Assembly: GCA_007126035.1 (NCBI GenBank)
Contig: SLCC01000059.1
Location: 62,001-126,000, forward strand
Direction of reading: 5' to 3'
DNA length: 64,000 bases
Origin: Gemmatimonadota bacterium
GTDB taxonomy: Bacteria > Gemmatimonadota > Gemmatimonadetes > Longimicrobiales > RSA9
A program made the position numbers and the translations under genes. Each line of letters opens with the position of its first letter. Within the stretch, counting starts at the first letter, position 1. Shown here piece after piece: positions 38,099 to 55,162 of the stretch. The notes under the pieces are model-generated. The model made no database searches and was not told where the DNA came from. It was given only the letters and a program-made list of their open reading frames with translations.

Positions 38099-40294
38099 TC
38101 AGTGGATCTCCCAGACCCTCTCCACGAGCGTCCCCGCCTCCGCCTCGTCGACGGCTCGACTGAAGTGATAGCCCTGGGCGGACGTACAGCCCAGGATCCG
38201 CATGATCCGCAGCTGGTCGGCCGTCTCCACTCCTTCCGCCACGACCTCCATCTCCAGCTCGTCAGCCAGCGCGACGATGGTCCTCACTATCTCGCTGTCC
38301 TCACCGTTGGGGCCCACACGGGCCGTGAAGGCATCGTCGATCTTCAGCGCCTGAGCGGCGAACCGGTGCAGGTAGCCGAGGGAGGAGTAGCCGGTCCCGA
38401 AGTCGTCTATCAACAACGACACGCCGAGTGTCCGGAGCCGCTCCAGGGTACGCGCCGTCTCCTCAGCCTGGTCCATGACAACGCTCTCCGTCAACTCCAG
38501 CCGCAGCGATTCGGGAGGAGCACCGGAGCGGGCCAGGACGCCCCTGACCTGACGGACCAGGTCTGGCTGGGCGAGCTGGGTCGCAGACAGGTTCACCGCC
38601 ACGTATGGGCGGCCCAGCTCCGGGCGCCACCATTCCCGCGCCCGGCGCGCCGCTTCCTCCAGTGTCCACCAGCCGATGGGCACGAGCAGGCCCGTGTCCT
38701 CTGCCATAACCAGGAAAGCGTCGGGAGCCAGCAGGCCCCGGACGGGATGCCGCCAGCGGAGCAGCGCCTCGAACCCTACCGGCCAGCCGTCACGAAGAGA
38801 GATGATAGGCTGGAAATGCAGCACGAACTCCTGACGCTCCACCGCGAGCCTCAAGCTGGTCTCCAGCTCGAGGTCCGCTATCGCCTGCTCCCGCATCGTA
38901 CTGTCGAACACCGTCGTCTGCGCCCGCGCCAGCTTCTTCGAGCGGTACATGGCGATGTCCGCGTCGCGAAGGACGTCCTCCGCCTTGTCGTAGTGCTGCT
39001 TGCCCAGAGCGACCCCGATGCTGACGGATGCATGGACCTCCCGACCCGCGATCGGGAACGGGCGCTCCATGGCAGCATGGATCCTGTCGGCGAGACGCTC
39101 GGCCGCGCTGGGCGTGGCCATGCCGTCAATTAGCAGGGCGAACTCGTCGCCCCCAACCCGCGCCACCGTGTCACCGGGGCGGACGCACCGCTCCAGCCGT
39201 GCCCCTAAGCCCATCAAGAGCTGGTCACCAGCGCTATGGCCAAGGCTGTCGTTGACGGCCTTGAAACGGTCCACGTCCAGGAACAGTACGGTGTAGCCGG
39301 GTGGCTCCGGCCGGCGACCCCGCTTCACCAGCTGGGCCAGGCGGTCCATGAACAGCGCTCGATTCGGAAGCTCGGTCAGACGGTCGTGGAAAGCGTCGTG
39401 GAGCAGACGCTCCTCCGCCCGCCGCCTCTCCGTCACGTCCTTGGCGTTCACCAACAGCCCGCCTATCACGGGGTCGCCGAGCAGGTCCTTTACCACCGCC
39501 TCCAGGATCCGCCATGACCCGTCATGATGGAGGAAACGCACCTCCACAGGCGCAGAGGCACCGCTGCCGTCGTCGAGCCGGACAAAGACCTGACGAGCCC
39601 TGCCCACCTCGTCAGGATGTATCAGCTCGAAGACAGATCGACCGACCAGCTCCTCCGGCGCGTAACCCAACACTCGCTCGACGGACGGGCTCTGGAAGGT
39701 GATCGTGCCATCGGCCGCCAGTATGGTGATGAAATCCAGGGCGTTCTCGATCAGCGAGCGGTATCGCCTCTCGCTGGCAACCAGCGCCGCCGCGGTTCGG
39801 GCCTGCTCCGTCACGTCCCGGAACGTCCAGACCAGGCCCAGCGCCCTGCCATGGACCTCCTGAGGCCAGCAGCGCCTCTCTATCAACCGGCCATCCCGCC
39901 GCCTGAGCGTGTCGGATTCCGGCCAGTCAGGGTCCCCGTCCTGGTCGGTGTACAGGGCGCGCACCCGCTCTACGAACCCCTCCGGGTCATCGAGCTGGTC
40001 GGCGACGAAAGCCAGCGCCTGGTCAGCGCAGCGCTCCGCCAGCACCGCGTCAGGGATAGCCCAGAGTTCGACGAACCGACGGTTGTAGCTGACCACCCGG
40101 TCCTGCTCATCCACGATCAACACGCCGTCGCTCGTGGAAGCCAGGACCGCATCCAGGAGCGAGGCATACAGCGCAAACCGCTCCGCTAGAGGCTCGGCGA
40201 CCTCGGCGGATCCCGACCCGGCACTCGACCCGTCGGCTGTCGCTGCATGATCCGACGGAGTCCCGTCCAAAGGCGGCTCGCTGGTTGTGCTCAA
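38099..40294 (-). CDS. PAS-PAS-GGDEF-EAL cyclic di-GMP enzyme
   Basis: 731 residues from a TTG start at 40294. Two PAS domains (about 45-160 and 170-290) precede a GGDEF domain with an intact ARVGGDEFALLI and the inhibitory I-site RPGD exactly five residues before it. The EAL domain keeps FEALLRW, VNLSATQ, LELTES, IDDFGTGYSSLGYL and VVAEGVE. Both diguanylate cyclase and phosphodiesterase residues look functional, so net direction is probably set by the PAS input. Cytoplasmic; no membrane segment. It stands between the two-component genes and the cytochrome operon. Confidence 0.92.
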   Translation of the reverse strand: MSTTSEPPLDGTPSDHAATADGSSAGSGSAEVAEPLAERFALYASLLDAVLASTSDGVLIVDEQDRVVSYNRRFVELWAIPDAVLAERCADQALAFVADQLDDPEGFVERVRALYTDQDGDPDWPESDTLRRRDGRLIERRCWPQEVHGRALGLVWTFRDVTEQARTAAALVASERRYRSLIENALDFITILAADGTITFQSPSVERVLGYAPEELVGRSVFELIHPDEVGRARQVFVRLDDGSGASAPVEVRFLHHDGSWRILEAVVKDLLGDPVIGGLLVNAKDVTERRRAEERLLHDAFHDRLTELPNRALFMDRLAQLVKRGRRPEPPGYTVLFLDVDRFKAVNDSLGHSAGDQLLMGLGARLERCVRPGDTVARVGGDEFALLIDGMATPSAAERLADRIHAAMERPFPIAGREVHASVSIGVALGKQHYDKAEDVLRDADIAMYRSKKLARAQTTVFDSTMREQAIADLELETSLRLAVERQEFVLHFQPIISLRDGWPVGFEALLRWRHPVRGLLAPDAFLVMAEDTGLLVPIGWWTLEEAARRAREWWRPELGRPYVAVNLSATQLAQPDLVRQVRGVLARSGAPPESLRLELTESVVMDQAEETARTLERLRTLGVSLLIDDFGTGYSSLGYLHRFAAQALKIDDAFTARVGPNGEDSEIVRTIVALADELEMEVVAEGVETADQLRIMRILGCTSAQGYHFSRAVDEAEAGTLVERVWEIH

Positions 40295-40382: not shown

Positions 40383-41723
40383 CTACTGACCCAACCTCAG
40401 GACCCTCTCGTGGAAGTCTTCCGCCATCGCCTCGAAGTTCCACGGCTCCCTCGGATCGTAGTGACAGTAAGTGCACAAGCCGCTGTGGGGCACCCGGCCA
40501 AGGTCGGGTGGGGGTGGCGGTGATCGACCCGCCAGCCGATACGCATCCTGGACGCCCACAACAGCCTCCCGCAGCAGCCGATCGCTCAGCTCCAGGTTGT
40601 GCTGGCCGCCTGCATCCGCTATCAGGCCGATCATCTCCGCAGACATCCGCAGCAGGATGGTGGACGTGTCCGGCGGCTCCACCAGCTGGAGCGATGCCCG
40701 ATCCAGGTACTGCCGCACCGCGGCCATCCGTACGTCCACCCCGTCGATCCACCAGGTCAGGATCCGCTCGTACTCCCGCTCGTGACAGCTCGCGCACGCC
40801 GTCGCCTGGCCACGGATCGCATCGCCCGGCGCCTCCGCCGTCCGGGCCGTGGGGATGTGGCACGAACGGCACGTTATCCCCACCACGAAATGCTCTGCGG
40901 GCATGGTCCGGCCGTCAGGTCGGATGCCCAGCAACAGGCGCTGCTGGGGCGCGTGCACACCCACGTGGCAATCGGTGCAGAACTCCGCGGGCGGCACGCC
41001 CGGCCGAGGCAGCGCCTGTCCGTGCGCCTCCTGATGGCAGTCGGCGCACACCAGGTCCACCGCCGAGCTCATGGCTTCCATGCGGTGGATATCGCTGGTA
41101 TGGCACGCGGTGCAGGTCAGGCCCGAATGGACCGGGTGCAGGTCCAGGCCCACCGCCCGGGCCTGCAAGCGCTCCAGGTCCGTGTGACACTGGCGACAGG
41201 TCTGCGGGCTCACCCCCACGTCCGGACTCACCAGATCGTAATGGCAACGGACGCAACCGATCTCGATCCAGGGCAGCTGCGAATGGGATATGGCCACGCC
41301 CTGGCTGGTCAGGATGCTGTGATCCGGATCGACGTGACAGGACCGGCACTCCTGCGGCTCCGCGCCCGTGAGTTGACCCACATGACAGAGTGCGCAGGCG
41401 TCCACCGTTGCGCGGATGGGCTCCTCGCCTCGGTCATGCGTGTGACACCCCGAGCAGGTGATGGGCACGGGGCTGCCATGACCATGATCACGGTGCGGAA
41501 ACGTCACGGTCCCGAAGCGTGCCTCGGCCGGCCCACGGTCACCGTGACAGCCCGCCGAGGTGCACGTCGCCTCCGGCACCATGGCCCGGCCGCGCTCGCC
41601 CCTGGGCCCCTGATGGCAGGCCGCGCACGCCAGGTCCGCGTGAGGGTCGACCGGGTCGCGCTCGACCACGTCGCAGCCCGCGACCATGACTACCAGCGCA
41701 GCGATCAGCAGAGAGCGGCCCAT
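40383..41723 (-). CDS. Tridecahaem cytochrome c lipoprotein
   Basis: 446 residues with lipobox VMVAGC (Cys17). I count twelve CxxCH motifs and one CX4CH (CTSAGCH, about residue 54), plus many free histidines for second axial ligands. The C-terminal ~130 residues hold a helical region (RILTWWIDGVDVRMAAVRQYLDRASLQ...) between the twelfth and last haem. This resembles the octahaem/NrfB-like electron carriers. It is the last gene of the five-gene unit and overlaps the cytochrome b gene by 19 bp. It probably accepts electrons from that membrane subunit in the periplasm. Confidence 0.88.
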   Translation of the reverse strand: MGRSLLIAALVVMVAGCDVVERDPVDPHADLACAACHQGPRGERGRAMVPEATCTSAGCHGDRGPAEARFGTVTFPHRDHGHGSPVPITCSGCHTHDRGEEPIRATVDACALCHVGQLTGAEPQECRSCHVDPDHSILTSQGVAISHSQLPWIEIGCVRCHYDLVSPDVGVSPQTCRQCHTDLERLQARAVGLDLHPVHSGLTCTACHTSDIHRMEAMSSAVDLVCADCHQEAHGQALPRPGVPPAEFCTDCHVGVHAPQQRLLLGIRPDGRTMPAEHFVVGITCRSCHIPTARTAEAPGDAIRGQATACASCHEREYERILTWWIDGVDVRMAAVRQYLDRASLQLVEPPDTSTILLRMSAEMIGLIADAGGQHNLELSDRLLREAVVGVQDAYRLAGRSPPPPPDLGRVPHSGLCTYCHYDPREPWNFEAMAEDFHERVLRLGQ

Positions 41724-42610
41724 AAAATCATCCCAATGGTGGCAAGTCCCACGCCCCAGGCGGCGAAGCCGAATATGGCTGCCACCATGGTCTGTGTCCG
41801 TGTCGGCGGCGGCGCACGCCGGTCGGCGATGGCCTTGTGCGAGACCGGTTCGTGCGCCACGGCCTCGATCTGGTCCATCATGACCGGATGCTCCTCCTCC
41901 ATGTAGTCCAGGGTTCCCCGGCCCGTGAACATCACCGCGTCCAGCGGGAACTTGTCGGGCCGAAGGTGGACATTGAAGAAATGGATCGTGAACAGGAACG
42001 CCGCGGCCAGCATGGCCTCATAGGCGTGGAAGATGGTGGCCACGTTGAACATCCAGCCCGGCATCCACCGGCCGAAGAACTCGGGGAACCAGAGCATGAA
42101 GCCCGACCCGCCGATGATCACGAAACCCCACACCTCACCCATGTAGTCCATCTTCTCCAGGTAGGAATAACGACCGAACCGCGGCCGCTCCCCCTTCCCG
42201 AAGTACCACTTCCACTGCTGGAGGAAGTCCCGCGCATCCTGCGGGTGAGGCAGCAGCGAGTCGGAGCCCCACAGCATCCGCCGCTTGTCCCTGGTCCTCA
42301 CCAGCTTCACCGTCATGTACACGATGTGGACGAAGGTGTAGGTAACCATGAACACCGCGGCGGTGCGGTGGATCAGCCCCGCCTGCTCCACACCACCCCA
42401 GAACCGCATCAGCGGCTCGGCGAACGGCGCGCAGGCGAACCGTAGCGGGATACCCGTCAGGATCAACGTGTAGAACGAGATGATGGCGAAGCCGTGCGTC
42501 AGGCGGTGGAACAGGTTGAACCGCCAGATGAACGGGCCCCGCCCTCGCTGAGCAGCATCGAGGGGGACCCCCCCATCCCCGTACTCGTGGTGCACGATAT
42601 GGTTACTCAT
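41705..42610 (-). CDS. Membrane di-haem cytochrome b (FdnI/HydC-like quinone-interacting subunit)
   Basis: 301 residues. About four core transmembrane helices carry histidines placed as in formate dehydrogenase gamma and hydrogenase cytochrome b subunits: FNLFHRLTHGF (His35, His39), LIHRTAAVFMVTYTFVHIVYM, and IFHAYEAMLAAAFLFTIHFFNVHLRPDKFPLD. A fifth hydrophobic helix closes the C-terminus. Expected to exchange electrons between the menaquinone pool and the flanking multihaem cytochromes. It overlaps both neighbours, which implies fixed stoichiometry and a complex. Confidence 0.88.
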   Translation of the reverse strand: MSNHIVHHEYGDGGVPLDAAQRGRGPFIWRFNLFHRLTHGFAIISFYTLILTGIPLRFACAPFAEPLMRFWGGVEQAGLIHRTAAVFMVTYTFVHIVYMTVKLVRTRDKRRMLWGSDSLLPHPQDARDFLQQWKWYFGKGERPRFGRYSYLEKMDYMGEVWGFVIIGGSGFMLWFPEFFGRWMPGWMFNVATIFHAYEAMLAAAFLFTIHFFNVHLRPDKFPLDAVMFTGRGTLDYMEEEHPVMMDQIEAVAHEPVSHKAIADRRAPPPTRTQTMVAAIFGFAAWGVGLATIGMILWAALC

Positions 42611-43868
42611 GCTCGTCTCCCTCTCCCCTCACGCGCCCCTGCCCCTGCCCCTGCCCCTGCCCCTGCCCCGGGCCATGCTTGTGGCCCGGCCCGTGGAAGA
42701 TGCCGCGACGCTCGTCGACCTTGATCCTGACCCACCAGAACAGCGTGTGCAGACCGAACACCGTCAGCGTCCCGATCAGCAGTGAGTTCATGAACCAGAA
42801 CGAGTAGAATATGGCCGGGTTCCGGTGCCGGTTGAACGGCTCCGGATGCGAGTCGTACAGGACGAAGGCCGGCCGTGCGTACGGGTGACAGGCGGCACAC
42901 GTCGGCACCAGGTTCTGTTCGGCCACCGTGGATCGCGGGTCGTCCGCCGGGAAGATCTGGTGCGCGCTGTGACAGTCGGCGCAGGTCGCCACGATGACCG
43001 AGCCCAGGGCCGTCGCCTTCCCGTGGTAAGTGCCGAAGAACGTCTGAGCCGCGTGCGGGTGACACTCCGCACAGCGTTCCACCGCCGCCACAGTGAAGTC
43101 CCGCTCCCCCGCAACCGCCGTGGGGTGGGCATCGTGGCAGGTGGAGCAGGTGGGCGGACCAATCCCGCGCCGCGGGTCGAAGTCCTCGGGTGGCGTGGCC
43201 AGCAGCGCCTGCCCGTGCACGTCGTTCACCCACGCCGCTGCCGCCTCCTGGTGGCAGGCACCGCAGAACTGCGGCTGGTTGTGGGCAGCCATCCGTGATT
43301 CCGGGTCAGCCGGCGGCAACTGCTCGTGCGCCGAATGGCACGAGTGGCAGCCTACCCCTTCCGCGGCCCGGTGCGGGTCCGGCGGCGACAGGCGTTGGAG
43401 CTCGTGACAGGCGGTGCAGCGCTCGTTCAGCCGGGCCAGCTCCGGCCCCTCAGCCAGCCGCTCAAGGTCAACTACCGTGTGCACACCGTGACACTGGGTG
43501 CACGTCACCACCTCGCCCACCTCCCTCGCCTCCTCGCCCTCGACCCCCGCGTGGGCACTCCTGCGCCACTCCTGCTCCGCGGCTTCGTGACAGTCCGCGC
43601 ACCCGGTCGTGCGCGCGGCGGCAGGGTGGGGGAACCGGCCGAAGCCGGCATGGCAGTCGGTGCACGTCATGTGGCCGTGTGCCGACGCCGCCAACTCTTC
43701 CGGCAGAACCAGCATGCGCCGGGCATCCGCCAGGGTCCGGGTATGCTGCCTCAGCAGCTCCAGCTCACCATGGCAGCGCTGGCACTCGAGCACGGCCTGG
43801 GCCTCCAGGCCCGCGGGCACGAGCCCCATGATCAGCGCCATCGCCAACAACCTCAATGTCACCCTCAT
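42603..43868 (-). CDS. Undecahaem cytochrome c with C-terminal membrane anchor
   Basis: 421 residues. Signal peptide 1-24 (ending LEAQA), eleven CxxCH motifs, then a transmembrane helix (FWFMNSLLIGTLTVFGLHTLFWWV) and a short cytoplasmic tail ending in a repeated Gly-Gln run encoded by CCTGCC-type hexamers. Homology style is that of the multihaem subunits paired with cytochrome b in Geobacter-type Cbc complexes. Starts by ATGA overlap with the sigma-54 activator gene, so regulator and target are in one transcript. Confidence 0.88.
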   Translation of the reverse strand: MRVTLRLLAMALIMGLVPAGLEAQAVLECQRCHGELELLRQHTRTLADARRMLVLPEELAASAHGHMTCTDCHAGFGRFPHPAAARTTGCADCHEAAEQEWRRSAHAGVEGEEAREVGEVVTCTQCHGVHTVVDLERLAEGPELARLNERCTACHELQRLSPPDPHRAAEGVGCHSCHSAHEQLPPADPESRMAAHNQPQFCGACHQEAAAAWVNDVHGQALLATPPEDFDPRRGIGPPTCSTCHDAHPTAVAGERDFTVAAVERCAECHPHAAQTFFGTYHGKATALGSVIVATCADCHSAHQIFPADDPRSTVAEQNLVPTCAACHPYARPAFVLYDSHPEPFNRHRNPAIFYSFWFMNSLLIGTLTVFGLHTLFWWVRIKVDERRGIFHGPGHKHGPGQGQGQGQGQGRVRGEGDEHE

Positions 43869-45217
43869 TCTTCGAGCCCGTACTTCTTGAGGCGGTTACG
43901 TACCTGGTGTCGACTCATCCCCAACAGTCTCCCCGCTTCCGTTCGATTACCCTCGGCCCGCCGCAGCGCCGCCTCAAGCAGGCTCCGCTCGAGCGACTCG
44001 AAATCCAGCCCTTCCGTTCCCAGCTCCACCGCCGGCTCCCGGGACGGCTGACCACCGGCCAACTGCGCTGGCAGCATGTCCGGCGTCAGCACAGGCCCGT
44101 CCGCCAGGAGCACGGTACGCTCGATCATGTTCCGTAACTCCCGCACGTTGCCGGGCCACGGGTACTTCTTCAGCACCGCCATGGTCTCCGGCGCAATATC
44201 CCTGATCTTCTTGCCGAATTGACGGTTGAACTCTTCGACGAACGTCTTCACCAGCGCCGGTATGTCCGACGGTCGCTCCCGCAGTGGCGGCAGCCTGATC
44301 GGGAAGACCCGGAGCCGGTAGTACAGGTCTTCCCGGAACCGCTCCTCCGCCACCTCCTCCTCCAGGTCCCGGTTCGTGGCCGTCACCACCCGGGCATCAA
44401 CTACCAGGTCCTTCGTGCCGCCCACCCGCCGGAACCGCTTCTCCTCGATGAACTGCAACAGCTTGCCCTGGAGCCGGAGCCCTATCTCGCCAATCTCGTC
44501 CAGGAACAGGGTGCCGCCCTCCGCCAGCTCCACCAGCCCTCGCTTCATGGTACGAGCATCGGTGAACGCTCCCTTCTCGTGGCCGAACAGCTCCGACTCC
44601 ATCACGCTCTCGGCCAGTGCCGAACACGTCACGTTCACGAAAGGGCCCTCCGCCCGCTGACTCGCCCGATGGATCGACCGGGCCAGCAGACCCTTGCCCG
44701 TCCCTGTCTCACCCTCGAGCAGGACCGTGGTGCTGTCCGCCGGGGCCACCCGCCGGACCAGCTCGAAGACCTCCTGCATGGCCGGACTGCTGCCCACCAT
44801 GTCCTCTCCGACGCCCACCCCCCGGCGCAGGGCCCGGACCTCCCGGCGCAGCCGCGTCCGCTCCAGCGCCCCCTTGATCGTGGCGCTGAGCCGGTCGAAG
44901 CTGAACGGCTTCTCCAGGTAGTCCACCGCCCCTGCACGCAGCGCCCCTACCGCCGACGAGACCGTGGCATGGGCGCTCATCATCACGCAGACAGTGTCAC
45001 CCGAACGGGTCAACTCCTCCAGGAGCTCCGTCCCCTCACCGTCAGGAAGCTTGATGTCCAGGAGCGCCAGGTCAGGGATCTGCTGCTCGAGCTGTTGCCG
45101 GCCTTCCGCCAGGTTCGCCGCCGTGACCACGGTGTAGCCCTCCCGCTCCAACCGCTCCGCCGTCACCTGCCGCAGCAGATCGTCGTCTTCCAGGATCAGG
45201 ACTCGAGCGTTCGTCAT
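43865..45217 (-). CDS. NtrC-family sigma-54-dependent response regulator
   Basis: 450 residues: receiver with phosphoacceptor Asp in LALLDIKLPDGEG (about 57), AAA+ domain with Walker A GETGTGKG, the sigma-54 contact loop GAFTDA (a variant of GAFTGA), Walker B GGTLFLDEIGEI, and a Fis-type helix-turn-helix at the end (AEGNRTEAGRLLGMSRHQVRNRLKKYG). It activates sigma-54 promoters after phosphorylation by the coupled kinase (ATGA-type four-base overlap). I found no convincing GG-N10-GC promoter nearby, so the target promoter may lie outside or be diverged. Confidence 0.93.
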   Translation of the reverse strand: MTNARVLILEDDDLLRQVTAERLEREGYTVVTAANLAEGRQQLEQQIPDLALLDIKLPDGEGTELLEELTRSGDTVCVMMSAHATVSSAVGALRAGAVDYLEKPFSFDRLSATIKGALERTRLRREVRALRRGVGVGEDMVGSSPAMQEVFELVRRVAPADSTTVLLEGETGTGKGLLARSIHRASQRAEGPFVNVTCSALAESVMESELFGHEKGAFTDARTMKRGLVELAEGGTLFLDEIGEIGLRLQGKLLQFIEEKRFRRVGGTKDLVVDARVVTATNRDLEEEVAEERFREDLYYRLRVFPIRLPPLRERPSDIPALVKTFVEEFNRQFGKKIRDIAPETMAVLKKYPWPGNVRELRNMIERTVLLADGPVLTPDMLPAQLAGGQPSREPAVELGTEGLDFESLERSLLEAALRRAEGNRTEAGRLLGMSRHQVRNRLKKYGLEE

Positions 45218-46653
45218 TCCCCCTCCCCCCCCGACGTCTCCGCTCGGGGCTTCTCCGGCAGCGCGATCCTCACCGTCGTCCCCACCCCGGCCTCGCTCTT
45301 GATGTCCAGCTCCCCTCGATGCGCCGCCACGACCCGCGCCACCAGCGGTAGGCCCAGCCCCGTGCCCGCCGGCTTCGTAGAGTAGAACGGGAGTACCACC
45401 TTCTCGATCTCCGTCTCCGGGATCCCGGGCCCGGTGTCCTTGAACTCCAGAACCACGCGGTCACCCTCCCGTTCGATTCCGATGGCCAACACACCACCGG
45501 GATCCATGGCCTCCATGGCGTTCAGCATCACATTCAGCACCGCCTGCTCGAGGCGGTGCCGGTCCCCGTAGACAATCGGGGTTTCACTACCGTAACCCCG
45601 CTCCACCCGGCGGCCCGCCAGGTCCATGAGCCCCGCCAACTGGGCCAGCGCGCTGTCCACCGTGTCCCTCAGGTCCACCCGCTCGTCCTCCAGTTCCACC
45701 GGCTTGGCCAGGGCGAATAGGTCCTGCATGGTCTCCGTCAACTTGCCCAGCTGGTTGTCCACTGCCGACAACAGCGACTGGGCCGGACCGTCCAGCCGGT
45801 ACTCCTGCTCCAGAAGGGAGACCGCGGAACGGATCGACGCCAGTGGACGCTTGAACTCGTGCGCCATCTCCGCAGCCATCTCACCCACCTGTGCAAAACC
45901 AGCCTGCGTCGCCAGCCGGGCCTCCTGCTCCGCCGCCACCCTCGCCGCCTCCCGCTCCTTGCGCAACAGGTCCGATACGGACGCCTCGATATCCGCAAGG
46001 TCCACATGGCGCTGACCAGGTCGGTCTCTCGGACCCAGGATACCGGCCACCCGCTCCATGGGCGTCATCACTTCCCGCTCGAGCATAGTGGCAACGATGA
46101 AGATCACCGCCGCCAGTGACCCCACCAGCAGGAGCAGGCCCAGACGAGCGGCCCGGTCCATGGCAGCCTGGAGCGGCGCAAGGGAGAAGTCGACCTGGAG
46201 GAACGCAGCACCACCGGCACGCAGCGGCAGGAACGCGTTGACCAGATCTCCGTCAGTCGTGAGCCGCGCCGCGCCGCCGACCGGTATGTCCCGGGGCGCG
46301 GGGATCCAGATACCGGCTGGCCGCTGGCCCTCCTCCTCCCGATTTGTCGAGACGATGATCACACCGGCAGGACTGAAGACACGTGCCGCGACAATGGACT
46401 CCAACTGCACCAGCTCCAGCAATGCGCGACGCGCCCGACCATAGTCCCGGGCCGTCAGGCCCGCCTCCACCGCCGATCGCACCGACGCGGCCGCCAGCAG
46501 GGCCTGCTGCTCCGCCGCGGCTACCGACTCCTGGTGCCAGTATCTGAACGTCAAAGAGGAGACGACAGCGAAGACGATCACGGCCGTACCCACAGCCGTG
46601 ATGATCAGCTTCGTCCGAAGCGGCTGTGCTCTGAGCCGCCGGATCCCCCTCAT
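45214..46653 (-). CDS. Membrane sensor histidine kinase paired with the sigma-54 activator
   Basis: About 479 residues from ATG 46653 (GGAGGG six bases upstream); a longer frame to 46788 is unlikely. Two transmembrane helices (about 13-35 and 180-203) flank a ~140-residue periplasmic sensor region. Then a HAMP-like linker, H-box MAHEFKRPLASI, N-box NVMLNAMEAMDPG, and G-boxes DTGPGIP and GTGLGLPLVARVV. Likely reads a periplasmic or redox signal and controls the downstream cytochrome complex. Confidence 0.88.
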   Translation of the reverse strand: MRGIRRLRAQPLRTKLIITAVGTAVIVFAVVSSLTFRYWHQESVAAAEQQALLAAASVRSAVEAGLTARDYGRARRALLELVQLESIVAARVFSPAGVIIVSTNREEEGQRPAGIWIPAPRDIPVGGAARLTTDGDLVNAFLPLRAGGAAFLQVDFSLAPLQAAMDRAARLGLLLLVGSLAAVIFIVATMLEREVMTPMERVAGILGPRDRPGQRHVDLADIEASVSDLLRKEREAARVAAEQEARLATQAGFAQVGEMAAEMAHEFKRPLASIRSAVSLLEQEYRLDGPAQSLLSAVDNQLGKLTETMQDLFALAKPVELEDERVDLRDTVDSALAQLAGLMDLAGRRVERGYGSETPIVYGDRHRLEQAVLNVMLNAMEAMDPGGVLAIGIEREGDRVVLEFKDTGPGIPETEIEKVVLPFYSTKPAGTGLGLPLVARVVAAHRGELDIKSEAGVGTTVRIALPEKPRAETSGGEGE

Positions 46654-46801
46654 CGTCCCTCCAACACCGGACCAGGACCGCGCCGCAGCACGCGGATGAC
46701 CTCTTGAAATGCTACCGATCACAAAGATAATACAACCTGAGGCAGCGGCCTTTACCAGCACCGCCACCTCAGGCGGACCCCCACCCAAACAACCGCCGCA
46801 C

Positions 46802-47971
46802 TCAGCCGGCGATCAGGAACAGCGCCGCCAGCGCCGTGGCGTGCGCCACCAACGCCGTGCCGAACCCCTGACGCCAGTACAGCACACCGAACGCCACCGC
46901 CGGCACCACCGCCGTCACCAGCAAGAACGCCAGCAGCGTGGTCGTCGACGGCAGACCGAGCGCCAGCACGCCAGGCAGGTATATCAGCACCTGCGCCACC
47001 GCGGCCACCGCGATGGCAACGCCCACCGCCTTCGCTTCAGTGAAACCGAACTCCCTGAGCCCGACCCAGGCCACCGCAGTGACCAGGAACAGGCGGAACA
47101 GGACCTCGTCGACCAGGGCGCCGCTCAACACGCCCGCTATGCCACCCGTGCTCACGCCGTACGCGGCGGTATAGAACGGCAGCGCGATCAGCGCCAGGAC
47201 AATTCCCACCGTCAGCGCAACCGCAATGCTCGCCAGCGCGCTGCCCCGCCCGCCGAATGTCATCGCGGGCCGCGCCACCGGGAGCCGGTCCAGCAGCGCC
47301 AGCGACAACCCTACCATCGGGCCGGCAAGCCATAGCGTCACCGCAGTCGCCAGCAACACCGCGCCAGTAGGCGTCACCTGCACCGGCAGACCCCATAGCT
47401 GCGGACGCTCCGAGACGAACACCGCCAGCAACCCGCCGTACAGAGCCGCCACCAGCAACGTGGCGACCCGGGCGTTGGACCAGCTCCCGTACAGGCGCCG
47501 CAGTGCCGACCAGCCCTGCTCCGCGCCCACGTACAGCAGCGCCGCACCAACCAGCCAGGCCACTCCGCAGCCGATCAGTCCCGCTACCCTGCCCGTGTAC
47601 AGCGCAACCGACGTCATGGCTATCCAGCCACAAACCAGCCAGCTCAACAACAGGGCCGGCACCGCGTACACCACACCCATGGCCAGACTGGCAACTGCGT
47701 CACGCCGTGTGACCTCCGCCGGACGCCCCACATAGCCGAGCAGACCGCCATGAATGAAGCCCAGGCCGGCGCCGACCCCGAACAGACCCGTGGCCGTCAT
47801 CAGGAGACCAAAGCCGCTCAACTGACCGGCCAGCGTCATCCCCGCCACCACCACACCTCCCACCAGGATCCCACCCGCGACAGCCCAACTCACCGCAAGC
47901 TTGCCCACAGGGCCGACCCCCAGGACCAGCGGCCCTCCTTGCTTCCTCTCGTCCGTCCTCGTAGTAGACAT
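46802..47971 (-). CDS. Polytopic membrane protein, CPBP (Abi) intramembrane protease-like
   Basis: 389 residues with about 9-10 transmembrane helices. Near the C-terminus SGALVDEVLFRLFLVT has the ExxxR part of the CPBP EExxxR motif (first Glu is Asp), and HATALAALFL supplies a late His. This fits a glutamic/metal intramembrane protease of the Rce1 type but with imperfect motifs. It sits between two cytochrome units in the same orientation; a role in their assembly would be speculative. Confidence 0.6.
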   Translation of the reverse strand: MSTTRTDERKQGGPLVLGVGPVGKLAVSWAVAGGILVGGVVVAGMTLAGQLSGFGLLMTATGLFGVGAGLGFIHGGLLGYVGRPAEVTRRDAVASLAMGVVYAVPALLLSWLVCGWIAMTSVALYTGRVAGLIGCGVAWLVGAALLYVGAEQGWSALRRLYGSWSNARVATLLVAALYGGLLAVFVSERPQLWGLPVQVTPTGAVLLATAVTLWLAGPMVGLSLALLDRLPVARPAMTFGGRGSALASIAVALTVGIVLALIALPFYTAAYGVSTGGIAGVLSGALVDEVLFRLFLVTAVAWVGLREFGFTEAKAVGVAIAVAAVAQVLIYLPGVLALGLPSTTTLLAFLLVTAVVPAVAFGVLYWRQGFGTALVAHATALAALFLIAG

Positions 47972-48177: not shown

Positions 48178-48660
48178 TCAGCCGCCCCAGTCCACCGGCG
48201 GCGGGGCCTCGAGCATCTCGGGTCGGAGCAGCTCCTGGACGTAGAACGCCACCGCGTCGATCTCCCGGGGCGTCAGTCGACTGATGCCCCAGCTCGGCAT
48301 CCCGCCCACGTGCCCGGTGAAGATCCGCTGTCGCACTGCCTCGGTATCGGCCGCGAGCCGCCACTCGGCGGCGACCAGGGAGGGGACCGGGATCTGCTGA
48401 CCTGCCACTTCCACGACGCCACCCTCGCCCACCGGGCCGTGGCAGCGGCGACAGAAGTCGGCATAGACCAGATTGCCGGCCGTGGCCCTCTGCTCCTCCG
48501 ACGGCCACTGGATGGTATCGAAGAGTGCGGGCGAATAGAGGGAGTCGGCCAGCTCGATACGCCGTTCCGCCTCGGGCGGCTCGTAGCCTGGCGCCTCGCA
48601 GGCGGGCAGAGCCGCGCTTGCCGAGGCCAGGGCGACGACGGCGAGCCAGCGGGTCCTCAC
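48178..48660 (-). CDS. Mono-haem cytochrome c lipoprotein
   Basis: 160 residues. Lipobox ALPAC near residue 21. The single haem site is CRRCH at about 69-74, and the class I distal ligand is the Met in VGGMPSWGISRLTPREIDAVAFYVQELL. Architecture is a small class I cytochrome c tethered to the membrane, suitable as a soluble-domain electron shuttle. It overlaps the TPR gene by four bases (ATGA). Confidence 0.88.
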   Translation of the reverse strand: MRTRWLAVVALASASAALPACEAPGYEPPEAERRIELADSLYSPALFDTIQWPSEEQRATAGNLVYADFCRRCHGPVGEGGVVEVAGQQIPVPSLVAAEWRLAADTEAVRQRIFTGHVGGMPSWGISRLTPREIDAVAFYVQELLRPEMLEAPPPVDWGG

Positions 48661-49067
48661 GGCAGCGTATCGGGGAGCGCGGGGTGATCGGGTGGCACGG
48701 GCATGTCCGGGTCGGGCTGGATGAGCGAGGCGTCCGGCGCGTGCATCCTGGCCTGCTCCATGGCCGCCTCGGCCGCTTCCGGATTGTCCAGGGCCATCTG
48801 GGCCATGTAGATGCCGAACCAGGCTGCCGCCAGGTCCCCGTGGATCTCCACGGCCTCATGGTAGTGCCGCAGGGCTCGCTCGTAGTCCCGTTCCCGGTAT
48901 GAGATGTTCCCGCTGTCGAGTGCGGCGGCGGCCGCCGGGTGCAGCTCGGCCCTGGCCGTCAGCACGTCCCGATCCGTGATGGTCTCGGTGCGCTGGTCGT
49001 CCGGCTGGGGGCAACCGGCCAAGACCAGCGCGGCGGCAGCGGTCGCGAACAGGCCTCTCGTCTTCAT
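48657..49067 (-). CDS. TPR-type lipoprotein
   Basis: 136 residues. Lipobox LVLAGC (Cys19), then two TPR-like helical pairs (AAAAALDSGNISYRERDYERALRHYHEAVEIHGDLAAAWFGIYMAQMALDNPEAAEAAMEQARMHAP) and a proline-rich end. The GATGAGG site precedes the ATG. TPR lipoproteins often scaffold multiprotein assemblies. Placed between the 20-haem and mono-haem cytochromes, it may organise that complex (inference). Confidence 0.75.
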   Translation of the reverse strand: MKTRGLFATAAAALVLAGCPQPDDQRTETITDRDVLTARAELHPAAAAALDSGNISYRERDYERALRHYHEAVEIHGDLAAAWFGIYMAQMALDNPEAAEAAMEQARMHAPDASLIQPDPDMPVPPDHPALPDTLP

Positions 49068-49089
49068 ATGCGCCTCATCACGTTGATGA

Positions 49090-50928
49090 TCATGTTGTGC
49101 CGGTGGGCAGAACGTGGCACGCGACGCAGTTGCGCCCCGGCCGGTGGTCCACCAGGTCCTGGTGACAGACCAGGCAGAAGTCCCGGGTCCGGGGCACCGC
49201 CTGGACCGTTGCGGGCGCCGCGTCGTGACATCCGGCGCCTGCGCAGCCCAGGTGGGCGTTCAGGTCGTGGGCGTCCTGCGCCGGCGCCGGGTGGCACGAC
49301 ATGCACGACACCGTCGGCTGGTGATGCTCCGCGTGGCAGGTGGCGCAGTTGAGCCCCGCTGCGCTGAGGGCCAGCCCGGCGGTGTGACACCGCTGGCAGT
49401 CGTACTGCATGTGATTGGCATGATCGAAAGGCAGAGTCCGGCGAGGCCGGTCCAGCCTGCCCACCTGGATGTCCATGACCCGGCTCACCGGCATGCTCAG
49501 CCGGCGCACGGCGCCCCTGTCATGGCACTGGACGCAGGGAGTGGCCTCCGGTTCCGTATGGTGGCAGGAGCGACAATCCCGGAGGCTGGTAACCGTGACC
49601 GCGCCGTGCCGGTCCCGCACCGAATGGCAGGCCGTGCACTCCACCCCCCGGTGCTGGGCATGCCAGAACCTGAGTGTGTCACCTGCCATGACCGCGGGCT
49701 GCCGCGTCGGCGCCGGCGCCGTCGGCGCTACCTGCTGCGGCGCGTGCAGCGCGGACACCGTCCGTTTCCGCTCCGGCCCCACCACGCCAGCCAGCCCGCC
49801 CGGTCCCGCCAGGGAATACGAGCCGTTCGACCACCCGTACGGCCCGCCTGGGCCATCCCACCCGCCAGGACCAGCGGGGTGACTGGCGACCATCGGCCGG
49901 TTCGATACCGGCGTCGGGGTGGGCTGAGGATGTGGAGACGGCTGCGCACCAAGTCGGCCGGGCGGAGCGTCCTGGTAGATGTCCGTATGGCAGGCCAGGC
50001 AGTCCATCCCCTGGTGGGGGATACGGAAACGATGCGCCTCGTGGCAAGCGCTGCAATCCTCCAGCACGCCCACGCCCAGACCCCGGTGGAAGGGAGACAG
50101 ATCCGCGGGCCGCTCGTGACAGCCTGCCGTGGCGCACGTCTGGACCGCCTGCGCCGGCGTCTCCTGCACGTGGGGGTTGTGGCACGCGCCACAGGCCGCG
50201 TCGTGAGGCTCGTCCGGCGGGAAGTCGGTGAGCAGGAGCCGCATCTGATGACAGCTCATGCACTCCGCCGCCTGCGGCCGCAACGACGTCGCCACCTCAA
50301 CCGGCAGGGCCTCCTCGGGAACTGGCGCCGTGAACTCGTGACAGGTGGCGCAGTGGATCGTGATCTCCGCCATCCGACCCAGCTCTATGGTCAGGCCCTC
50401 GTGACACCCGCCCTGGCCACACGTCCGATCCGTGGGAGCAAACTCGTGCACGCCCGTGGAATGACACTCCACGCACTGGTACCCCCGCAGCACCGGGTCG
50501 TCCGACTCCAGGTGGATACGGTGCCCCGCCGTGTTGGCAATGTGACGCCACTGCTCGGGGTCACCCTCGATGTGGCACTCGGCACACACCTCGTTGGGAA
50601 CATGCGCGTGTACCCGGACCTCCTCCGGTCGCTCGACCACCTGCGCCAGACCCATGGTGCTCCGCTCGACGATGCCAGGTCGATGACACGCCTTGCAGCC
50701 CAGGTCACGATGGCCGCTCCGAGCGAATCGCTCGTACGGATCACGCATCAGGTGGCACTGGAGACAGAACTGGTTGTCGTGCTCCACGAACTCGTACGTC
50801 CGGTACAGCAGGACCGAGCCTACGGCAAACACAGCCACCAGGCCCACCCCGGCCACCACCTTCAGCCCACGGGGAAGTCCACGGAACCGACCCCCGAGCG
50901 CCGTCAGAAGAGAGGAAAATCTACCCAT
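49090..50928 (-). CDS. Icosahaem (20-haem) cytochrome c, NapC/NirT-like N-terminus
   Basis: 612 residues. A transmembrane anchor (about 22-42, LKVVAGVGLVAVFAVGSVLLY) is followed by NQFCLQCHLMRDPYERFARSGHRDLGCKACH, the start of NapC/NirT-type quinol dehydrogenases. I count seventeen CxxCH and three CX4CH (CGQGGCH, CATAGCH, CAGAGCH), i.e. twenty possible c haems. A haem-free, Pro/Gly/Ser-rich linker at about 325-395 splits them into an N-terminal group of eleven and a C-terminal group of nine. Such a protein could carry electrons from the quinol pool deep into or across the periplasm. First gene of a three-gene unit. Confidence 0.9.
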   Translation of the reverse strand: MGRFSSLLTALGGRFRGLPRGLKVVAGVGLVAVFAVGSVLLYRTYEFVEHDNQFCLQCHLMRDPYERFARSGHRDLGCKACHRPGIVERSTMGLAQVVERPEEVRVHAHVPNEVCAECHIEGDPEQWRHIANTAGHRIHLESDDPVLRGYQCVECHSTGVHEFAPTDRTCGQGGCHEGLTIELGRMAEITIHCATCHEFTAPVPEEALPVEVATSLRPQAAECMSCHQMRLLLTDFPPDEPHDAACGACHNPHVQETPAQAVQTCATAGCHERPADLSPFHRGLGVGVLEDCSACHEAHRFRIPHQGMDCLACHTDIYQDAPPGRLGAQPSPHPQPTPTPVSNRPMVASHPAGPGGWDGPGGPYGWSNGSYSLAGPGGLAGVVGPERKRTVSALHAPQQVAPTAPAPTRQPAVMAGDTLRFWHAQHRGVECTACHSVRDRHGAVTVTSLRDCRSCHHTEPEATPCVQCHDRGAVRRLSMPVSRVMDIQVGRLDRPRRTLPFDHANHMQYDCQRCHTAGLALSAAGLNCATCHAEHHQPTVSCMSCHPAPAQDAHDLNAHLGCAGAGCHDAAPATVQAVPRTRDFCLVCHQDLVDHRPGRNCVACHVLPTGTT

Positions 50929-51562: not shown

Positions 51563-51635
51563 TGGGCCGGGTGGGACTCGAACCCACGACCGTTGGATTA
51601 AAAGTCCACTGCTCTGCCAACTGAGCTACCGGCCC
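51563..51635 (-). tRNA. tRNA-Lys, anticodon TTT
   Basis: A 73-nt cloverleaf: acceptor stem GGGCCGG/CCGGCCC, D-arm TAGCTCAGTTGGCAGAGCA, anticodon loop CTTTTAA, T-arm GTGGG-TTCGAGT-CCCAC, discriminator A. CCA is not encoded. The anticodon stem has four clean pairs and one terminal mismatch. Confidence 0.95.
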
Positions 51636-54403: not shown

Positions 54404-55162
54404 CTACTCCTTCCCGGCCTTCTCTTCAGTCTCGGCCTCCGACTCACCAGCCTCAGAACCGCCGGCCTCAGGCTCCTCCGGCGACGCCGGCGGCGCCTCC
54501 TCCACCGGGGCGCCAGTGCTCTCGGCCTTGCCGCTCTTCGGGGCCAGCGCCTCCACCTCCTGCTTCGTCTCGCCCGTGGTCGCCTCCGCGGGCGGCTCCT
54601 TCTCGGCACCAGGAGCGGCCGCCTCCAGCGGATCCGTCACCGGCTCGACCTCCGGCGCCTCCTCGGGGGTCGCCTCGGGGGTCGCCTCGGGGGCCGCCTC
54701 GGGGGTCGCCTCGGGGGTCGCCTCGGGGGTCGCCTCGGGGGTCGCCTCTGGGGTCGCCTCGGGGGCCGCCTCGGGGGCCGCCTCGGGGGTCGCCTCTGGG
54801 GTCGCCTCGGGGGCCGCCTCGGGGGCCGCCCGGTCGCCCTTCGGGCGCCGCTCCAGCCTGCTGGCCGTCTTCAGCGTAGGCGCCTCCTCGCCCGGCGCGA
54901 CGTACCGGACGGACGCATCGCCACCCTTGCGCGCCTTGCGGATCAGGGAGGCGGCGCTGTCGGTGACCTCGGCCCCCTTCTCGAGCCACTCGTCCACCTT
55001 GGACAGGTCCATGGTCAGGTACGCCGGGCGAGTGCGAGGATTGTAGAACCCCACCTCCTCGATGTAGGAACCGTCGCGCGGCGCGGTGCTGGGCATGACC
55101 ACCACGCGGTAGTAGGGCTGCTTCTTCCGGCCAACTCGCCGGAGTCGAATCCTCACGGCCAT
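54404..55162 (-). CDS. rpsP: 30S ribosomal protein S16 with a long acidic repeat tail
   Basis: 252 residues, about three times the usual length. Residues 1-82 are a complete S16 (MAVRIRLRRVGRKKQPYYRVVV.. FYNPRTRP.. WLEKGAEVTDSAASLIRKA). The rest is low complexity: about thirteen tandem PEA(T/A) tetrapeptides at 114-166, then an acidic Glu/Ala/Pro-rich stretch to a KAGKE end. The repeat DNA (about 54660-54835) is a 12-bp tandem array. The reading frame is intact throughout and neighbours are in the normal order, so the tail appears to be translated and probably disordered. Confidence 0.93.
   Translation of the reverse strand: MAVRIRLRRVGRKKQPYYRVVVMPSTAPRDGSYIEEVGFYNPRTRPAYLTMDLSKVDEWLEKGAEVTDSAASLIRKARKGGDASVRYVAPGEEAPTLKTASRLERRPKGDRAAPEAAPEATPEATPEAAPEAAPEATPEATPEATPEATPEATPEAAPEATPEATPEEAPEVEPVTDPLEAAAPGAEKEPPAEATTGETKQEVEALAPKSGKAESTGAPVEEAPPASPEEPEAGGSEAGESEAETEEKAGKE

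Follow-up and report, generated by a model that had tools for sequence, protein, structure and literature searches.

A 20-haem cytochrome with a NapC-like start as candidate arm of a porin-cytochrome conduit in Gemmatimonadota

The 20-haem cytochrome c encoded in the analysed DNA of a bacterium of the little-studied phylum Gemmatimonadota (assembly GCA_007126035.1; a stretch of 64,000 nucleotides of contig SLCC01000059.1, hereafter called the window) probably forms the arm by which a porin-cytochrome electron conduit is anchored in the inner membrane and reaches across the periplasm. Such a conduit would move electrons between the respiratory chain and the exterior of the cell. The sequence-only reading of the window had pointed to a long-range or trans-envelope electron wire. 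A trans-envelope route is well supported, both by a gene cassette shared with relatives of the class and by a barrel gene in the genome itself, whereas a single rigid wire is not favoured. The features of the region are compiled in Table 1.

Table 1 Positions of the 20-haem gene, its parts and its neighbours in the window
Feature	Position	Strand	Remarks
20-haem cytochrome c	49090..50928	(-)	612 aa; N-terminal anchor, two lobes, linker
NapC/NirT-like start	50674..50856	(-)	PF03264 match and CxxCHxM at haem 1
N-lobe, haems 1-11	49987..50766	(-)	residues 55-314; two motifs are CX4CH
Pro/Gly-rich linker	49639..49986	(-)	residues 315-430, 116 residues
C-lobe, haems 12-20	49114..49638	(-)	residues 431-605; one CX4CH; class III cytochrome-like (PF02085)
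TPR lipoprotein	48657..49067	(-)	136 aa; lipobox LAGC; TPR_19 30.9 bits
Mono-haem cytochrome, probable lipoprotein	48178..48660	(-)	160 aa; CBB3-type, 46.9 bits
Polytopic membrane protein	46802..47971	(-)	389 aa; without Pfam match; homologues in relatives
Histidine kinase	45214..46788	(-)	second module
Sigma-54-type response regulator	43865..45217	(-)	second module
11-haem cytochrome	42603..43868	(-)	second electron-entry module; haems by motif count
Cytochrome b-like membrane protein	41705..42610	(-)	second electron-entry module; PF01292 25.5 bits, below cut-off
13-haem lipoprotein	40383..41723	(-)	second electron-entry module; haems by motif count

Haem sites, lobes and linker of the 20-haem protein

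The recount of haem motifs agreed with the sequence-only reading. The protein contains 17 CX2CH and three CX4CH motifs, the latter at residues 170, 265 and 562, and all 40 Cys as well as 20 motif His are occupied by them. When the residues were shuffled (n = 2000), a mean of 0.20 CX2CH and 0.21 CX4CH motifs was obtained with a maximum of three of each. The Pro/Gly-rich linker between eleven and nine haems was likewise confirmed. One hydropathy peak at residues 18-36 represents the sole predicted membrane helix, at the N-terminus. Genes for cytochrome c assembly are present in the genome. An AlphaFold model of the protein from four sequences reached a mean pLDDT of 33 and was discarded. A scan for sigma-54 promoters upstream of the gene gave two 7-of-10 matches compared with 199 in the whole window, and no promoter is claimed. 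The only tRNA of the window, a tRNA-Lys (ttt) at 51563-51635 (-), is found upstream of the 20-haem gene at a distance of 635 bases.

The 20-haem protein was aligned with 41 full-length relatives (42 rows), which derive from 41 loci in 40 genomes of the class, as L050 and L087 both belong to genome G266. L034 and L035 were dropped from the counts since their contigs are those of L044 and L054. The loci were drawn from the matches listed, mostly the stronger ones, plus L033, and weaker relatives may be less regular. All 20 haem sites were retained in each of the 41 relatives. At sites 5, 9 and 18, CX4CH is found in 39, 32 and 24 relatives, and CX2CH instead in 2, 9 and 17. Because CX2CH replaces CX4CH at the identical three places and none of them was ever lost, the three sites look like true haem sites. 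The earlier reservation that CX4CH might bind no haem is unlikely to apply, given this exchange. In addition, 19 His outside the motifs are invariant in all 42 rows, which would suffice as second ligands for nearly all of the 20 haems.

The two-lobe layout fits the dumb-bell proposed from the sequence. However, the linker between haems 11 and 12 varies from 23 to 170 unconserved residues across the relatives, which argues against one rigid wire. The lobes are thus not kept at a fixed distance, and a tethered two-lobe carrier is favoured.

The description of the protein as NapC-like applies to its N-terminal anchor together with haems 1 and 2, but not to the remainder. PF03264 was matched with 25.3 bits (cut-off 24.1) in the genome search, only over positions 7-75 of 174, and it was absent from the matches of the whole protein at E <= 0.01. 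The first haem motif reads CxxCHxM, which we take to be the NapC/NirT signature in an NrfH-type arrangement, and 41 of 42 rows share its Met61. When a profile built from 22 members of the family was compared with the PDB, NrfH was matched at the N-terminus (E 2e-10). The NrfH equivalog TIGR03153 scored 28.7 bits on the protein, under its cut-off of 134.2, and the DmsE/MtrA family TIGR03508 scored 17.8 bits, under 192.2. That only haems 1 and 2 look NapC-like counts against the conduit.

Within the C-lobe, the profile matched 19hc (E 3e-7), 1z1n (E 3e-12) and 3ov0 (E 7e-10). These matches are the nine-haem cytochrome c, the Hmc sixteen-haem cytochrome and GSU1996, the last of which we take to be 3ov0. 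An MtrA-like C-lobe was considered and dropped, the profile matches of this lobe being of class III/Hmc type. A match to 6r2q_A (E 1.7e-5) maps to the N-lobe and not to the C-lobe; we presume this entry to be MtrA and its listed name to be a database mislabel. The 9-haem lipoprotein of the cassette resembles the DmsE/MtrA family more strongly (50 bits, below the cut-off) than the 20-haem protein does.

The cassette in the class and in the genome

Among 394 genomes of the class, a search for relatives of the 20-haem protein found matches in 134 genomes (77 of 143 genera), many of which were weak or confined to the C-lobe. The genes of the 41 loci are ordered as 9-haem lipoprotein, 20-haem cytochrome, barrel and 16-haem cytochrome, often with TPR and mono-haem genes next. 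The 9-haem gene is located upstream of the 20-haem gene in 38 loci; the remaining three loci break off at a contig end after 16-240 bases. In 40 of 41 loci the barrel gene follows downstream at less than 3 kb, and in the remaining one at 4.7 kb; the 16-haem gene comes after the barrel in 40 loci and at 6.0 kb in one. Homologues of the TPR and mono-haem proteins are encoded downstream in 25 and 11 of the relatives, respectively. At least 26 of the 41 9-haem proteins carry a lipobox, as some gene starts were miscalled. The adjacency by which porin-cytochrome systems are recognised, that of a barrel gene and a gene for a periplasmic multihaem cytochrome, was observed in 40 of 41 relatives and not at the window itself. 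Furthermore, 75 of the 77 genomes for which an N-lobe match is listed also carry the barrel. The co-occurrence of lobes and barrel was counted on 150 lobe matches and 101 barrel matches among those listed; most of the remaining barrel matches are weaker or belong to different types of cassette, and the contigs of standalone C-lobes counted as barrel-less carry none of them.

The barrel gene encodes a haem-less protein of ~500 aa with a signal peptide, and no further hydropathy peak was detected in the four proteins checked. It has no NCBIfam or PDB-profile match, and Pfam gave nothing except a sub-threshold DUF3570 in one of three proteins. A model from three sequences (pLDDT 44), which was used for strand content and fold search only, consists entirely of beta structure, with about 22 strands, and every one of the 50 PDB matches listed in the fold search was an outer-membrane protein by title. 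With the caveat of this weak model, the protein is treated here as a putative outer-membrane barrel. The weakness of the model counts against the conduit, as does the failure of library and PDB profiles to put a name to the barrel. Barrel profile matches were obtained in 123 of 394 genomes and in 71 of the 143 genera sampled, and a wider sample of the phylum contained only two, weak matches outside the class (E about 1e-4).

No barrel, 9-haem or 16-haem gene was found at the window locus and its surroundings, though the contig extends 26.6 kb further. The absence of a barrel beside the window copy counts against the conduit. Still, the search of the genome for a conduit porin, which the sequence-only reading had advised, was positive. 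Contig C40 of this genome carries the 9-haem gene (4015-2420), the barrel gene (2411-912) and the 16-haem gene from 915 to the contig end, and the remainder of the 16-haem gene is located together with a TPR gene at the end of contig C202. The two halves join: the C40 part ends with DVRAPGV and C202 starts with LPPSH, where a relative has VRAPGVGLEDQLPGSH. In phylogenetic trees, the barrel of the genome clusters with three barrels of 20-haem cassettes (support 0.91) and its 16-haem protein with 15 sequences of such cassettes (support 0.93). Its 9-haem sequence did not group cleanly with the 20-haem cassettes, and the low support in this tree counts against the conduit.

The cassette appears to be split, with the 20-haem, TPR and mono-haem genes in the window and the 9-haem, barrel, 16-haem and a second TPR gene on C40/C202. 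The tetranucleotide likeness of C202 to the window (0.931) is above that of all 37 loci of other genomes (maximum 0.899), while that of C40 (0.893) is below the best foreign locus. Since C40 is no closer than foreign loci and the contamination of the genome bin amounts to 4.24%, C40 is possibly a contamination. A plasmid search gave no match.

Of the 42 aligned loci, the window copy alone lies outside the cassette. It might therefore be a stranded relic which has lost its former neighbours and is decaying, but we consider this very improbable: the frame is open, 20 of 20 sites and all invariant His are intact, and the TPR and mono-haem partners still stand in tight succession. These two partners, described in the sequence-only reading as lipoproteins, are both present. 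The TPR protein has its lipobox; the mono-haem cytochrome has a lipobox-like LPAC with an untypical Pro, and its status as a lipoprotein is probable. Both genes follow the 20-haem gene closely in an operon-like manner, and homologues of the 389-aa membrane protein come after the mono-haem gene in L047, L049 and L088.

The separate C-lobe and a second electron-entry module

Among the matches listed, 34 rows are standalone C-lobes, i.e. proteins with 9-10 haems. A barrel gene lies within 400 nt downstream in 18 of them, and 16 are without a barrel, which counts against the conduit. A cassette-type 9-haem gene is located upstream of the standalone C-lobe in L112-L114, L116 and L117. The C-lobe, fused or free, often precedes the barrel and this points to the C-lobe as the outer-membrane side; the NapC-anchored N-lobe would then face the inner membrane.

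The bare-C-lobe barrel cassettes of L111-L114 are adjoined by a large haem-less gene and a 4-5-haem gene, and the large gene was NapA-like in both loci tested (L112 and L114). Contig C185 of the window's own genome (L073, 8992-10188) encodes a 13-haem paralogue which consists of the four last N-lobe haems and a C-lobe 63% identical to that of the window; it is situated near an M1 peptidase and an acyltransferase.

Another contig of the genome, C51 (L074, 136-5294), encodes in one run a NapA-like enzyme with a Tat signal, a 9-haem C-lobe homologue and cytochromes with five and four haems. The homologue beside the NapA-like enzyme speaks most strongly for a purely periplasmic role, in which the 20-haem protein would be an anchored quinol dehydrogenase that feeds soluble reductases such as NapA, with the mono-haem cytochrome as partner and no crossing of the outer membrane in this genome. 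NapC/NrfH proteins supply electrons to periplasmic reductases, and the window gene is apart from the barrel genes. As all 41 relatives examined sit in a barrel cassette and the genome retains barrel, 9-haem and 16-haem genes, such a role is nevertheless unlikely, and the conduit is preferred.

The haems of the region add up to 45 (20+1+11+13), as the sequence-only reading had stated. They belong, however, to two modules rather than to one chain, and the outer part of the conduit is encoded outside the region. Of the 394 genomes of the class, 76 contain homologues of the cytochrome b-like protein. A fusion of ~940 aa, in which cytochrome b is joined to a multihaem part with 19 motifs, is encoded directly before the conduit barrel gene in L101-L104 and L108, where the barrel is accompanied by a 12- or 16-haem gene. 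L109 contains in a row on one strand genes for 9-haem, barrel, 16-haem, 11-haem and cytochrome b proteins, followed by a relative of the 13-haem gene with 14 motifs, and the 11-haem/cytochrome b/13-haem trio lies less than 10 kb from the 20-haem cassette in L037 and L039. Because genes of this cytochrome b type adjoin the same barrel in relatives, two entry modules that lead to one kind of exit are probably encoded in the window, the second being its 11-haem/cytochrome b/13-haem operon. Two electron-entry modules for one exit, and not one rigid wire, are hence the best reading of the 45 haems.

A 22-haem protein that begins with a NapC region of its own is also encoded at loci of the second-module type (PF03264 35.1 bits in L104). 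These 22-motif cytochromes (L104 442-2505, L107 11239-13362 and L109 15079-17097) carry a different NapC-like start and form a second lineage of anchored cytochromes with more than 20 haems. In the window, a PAS-GGDEF-EAL protein is encoded immediately downstream of the 13-haem gene (38099-40294, (-)) and could link the redox state to c-di-GMP. The gene at 54404-55162 (-), by its start presumably that of ribosomal protein S16, has a long repeat tail of the EATPEATPEA type.

Proposed electron route and related systems

The N-terminal helix would anchor the 20-haem protein in the inner membrane, where the NapC/NrfH-like haems 1 and 2 may take electrons from quinol. From there, electrons would travel through the 11-haem N-lobe and across the flexible linker to the 9-haem C-lobe, which may pass them on to the unit of barrel, 16-haem cytochrome and 9-haem lipoprotein; linkage of these genes is observed, and contact of the proteins is presumed. 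The outer-membrane unit would exchange electrons with something outside, provided that it is exposed at the surface. Outward flow seems more likely than inward flow, as most characterised anchors of the NapC/NrfH type act as quinol dehydrogenases. The same conduit run in reverse, in which Fe(II), a different mineral or a partner cell would donate electrons for the reduction of quinone, is improbable on these grounds, even though conduits are discussed as reversible and PCC3 is proposed for Fe(II) oxidisers in sections of PMC10734462 and PMC5566968. A review estimates in its relevant section that about 27 haems are needed for a periplasm of 200 Å (PMC7096707), so that 20 haems correspond to a reach of ~150 Å, and together with its linker the 20-haem protein could bridge the periplasm.

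The C-lobe resembles the Desulfovibrio nine-haem cytochrome c, the sixteen-haem cytochrome Hmc and Geobacter GSU1996 in the profile search. To our knowledge, these are never fused to a NapC-like anchor, nor do their genes adjoin a barrel gene. The conduit shares a barrel with periplasmic and outer multihaem cytochromes with MtrCAB/MtoAB of Shewanella and Sideroxydans, and a membrane anchor with NapC-like first haems with ImcH, CymA and NrfH. According to the sections concerned, the 10-haem MtrA receives its electrons from a separate CymA and soluble shuttles (PMC7096707), and CymA and ImcH have four and seven haems (PMC6295460). The latter two need a separate carrier, in contrast to the anchored protein with 20 haems and a second lobe.

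The nearest known kind, compared by description, is PCC3, whose clusters occur in Sideroxydans, Leptothrix and others as far as described in sections of PMC5566968 and PMC10734462. By these descriptions, both systems combine a barrel, a further multihaem cytochrome and a presumed quinone-linked inner-membrane step, and the PCC3 cytochrome proposed to cross the periplasm has ~21 haems compared with 20 here. They differ in that the membrane step of PCC3 is a separate five-helix protein of ~300 aa, whereas the NapC-like anchor is part of the 20-haem protein itself, that the extracellular PCC3 cytochrome has a median of 34 haems whereas the partner cytochromes here have 16 and 9, and that the PCC3 porin reaches up to 42 strands whereas the barrel is modelled with about 22. 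None of the four cassette genes encodes the ~300-aa inner-membrane protein with SGXXG and WX3HX13H, and the cytochrome b of the window lacks both motifs. Membership in PCC3 was considered and is not claimed; the membrane protein differs, and the barrel size probably does.

Our full-text literature search found no description of such a conduit in Gemmatimonadota. For the phylum, Table 1 of PMC6295460 gives one homologue of CbcL type and two of ImcH. The closest description is that of a 2026 cave study (PMC13264449), which reports a conduit group with more than 20 motifs; its section text does not name Gemmatimonadota as carriers, and this group might include the 20-haem cassette.

A more far-reaching reading, which we put forward tentatively and with somewhat more doubt than belief, is that of a class-wide Gemmatimonadota conduit which, unlike MtrCAB, joins a hinged fusion of quinol dehydrogenase and docking lobe to one exit with interchangeable entry modules. 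The exit would consist of the 9-haem lipoprotein, the barrel and the 16-haem cytochrome. Entry would be provided by the NapC fusion, one molecule of which would span the periplasm, by the bare C-lobe, which often has a NapA-like enzyme close by, or by cytochrome b with 11-19 haems alongside the 22-haem NapC-anchored cytochrome. Whether electrons cross the periplasm by diffusing shuttles or over a continuous bridge is an open question, and a natural fusion of quinol dehydrogenase and docking lobe, whose hinge measures 23-170 residues in the relatives, makes this question testable through changes of the linker. If true, the Gemmatimonadota would possess a widespread conduit, with the barrel in 71 of the 143 genera sampled.
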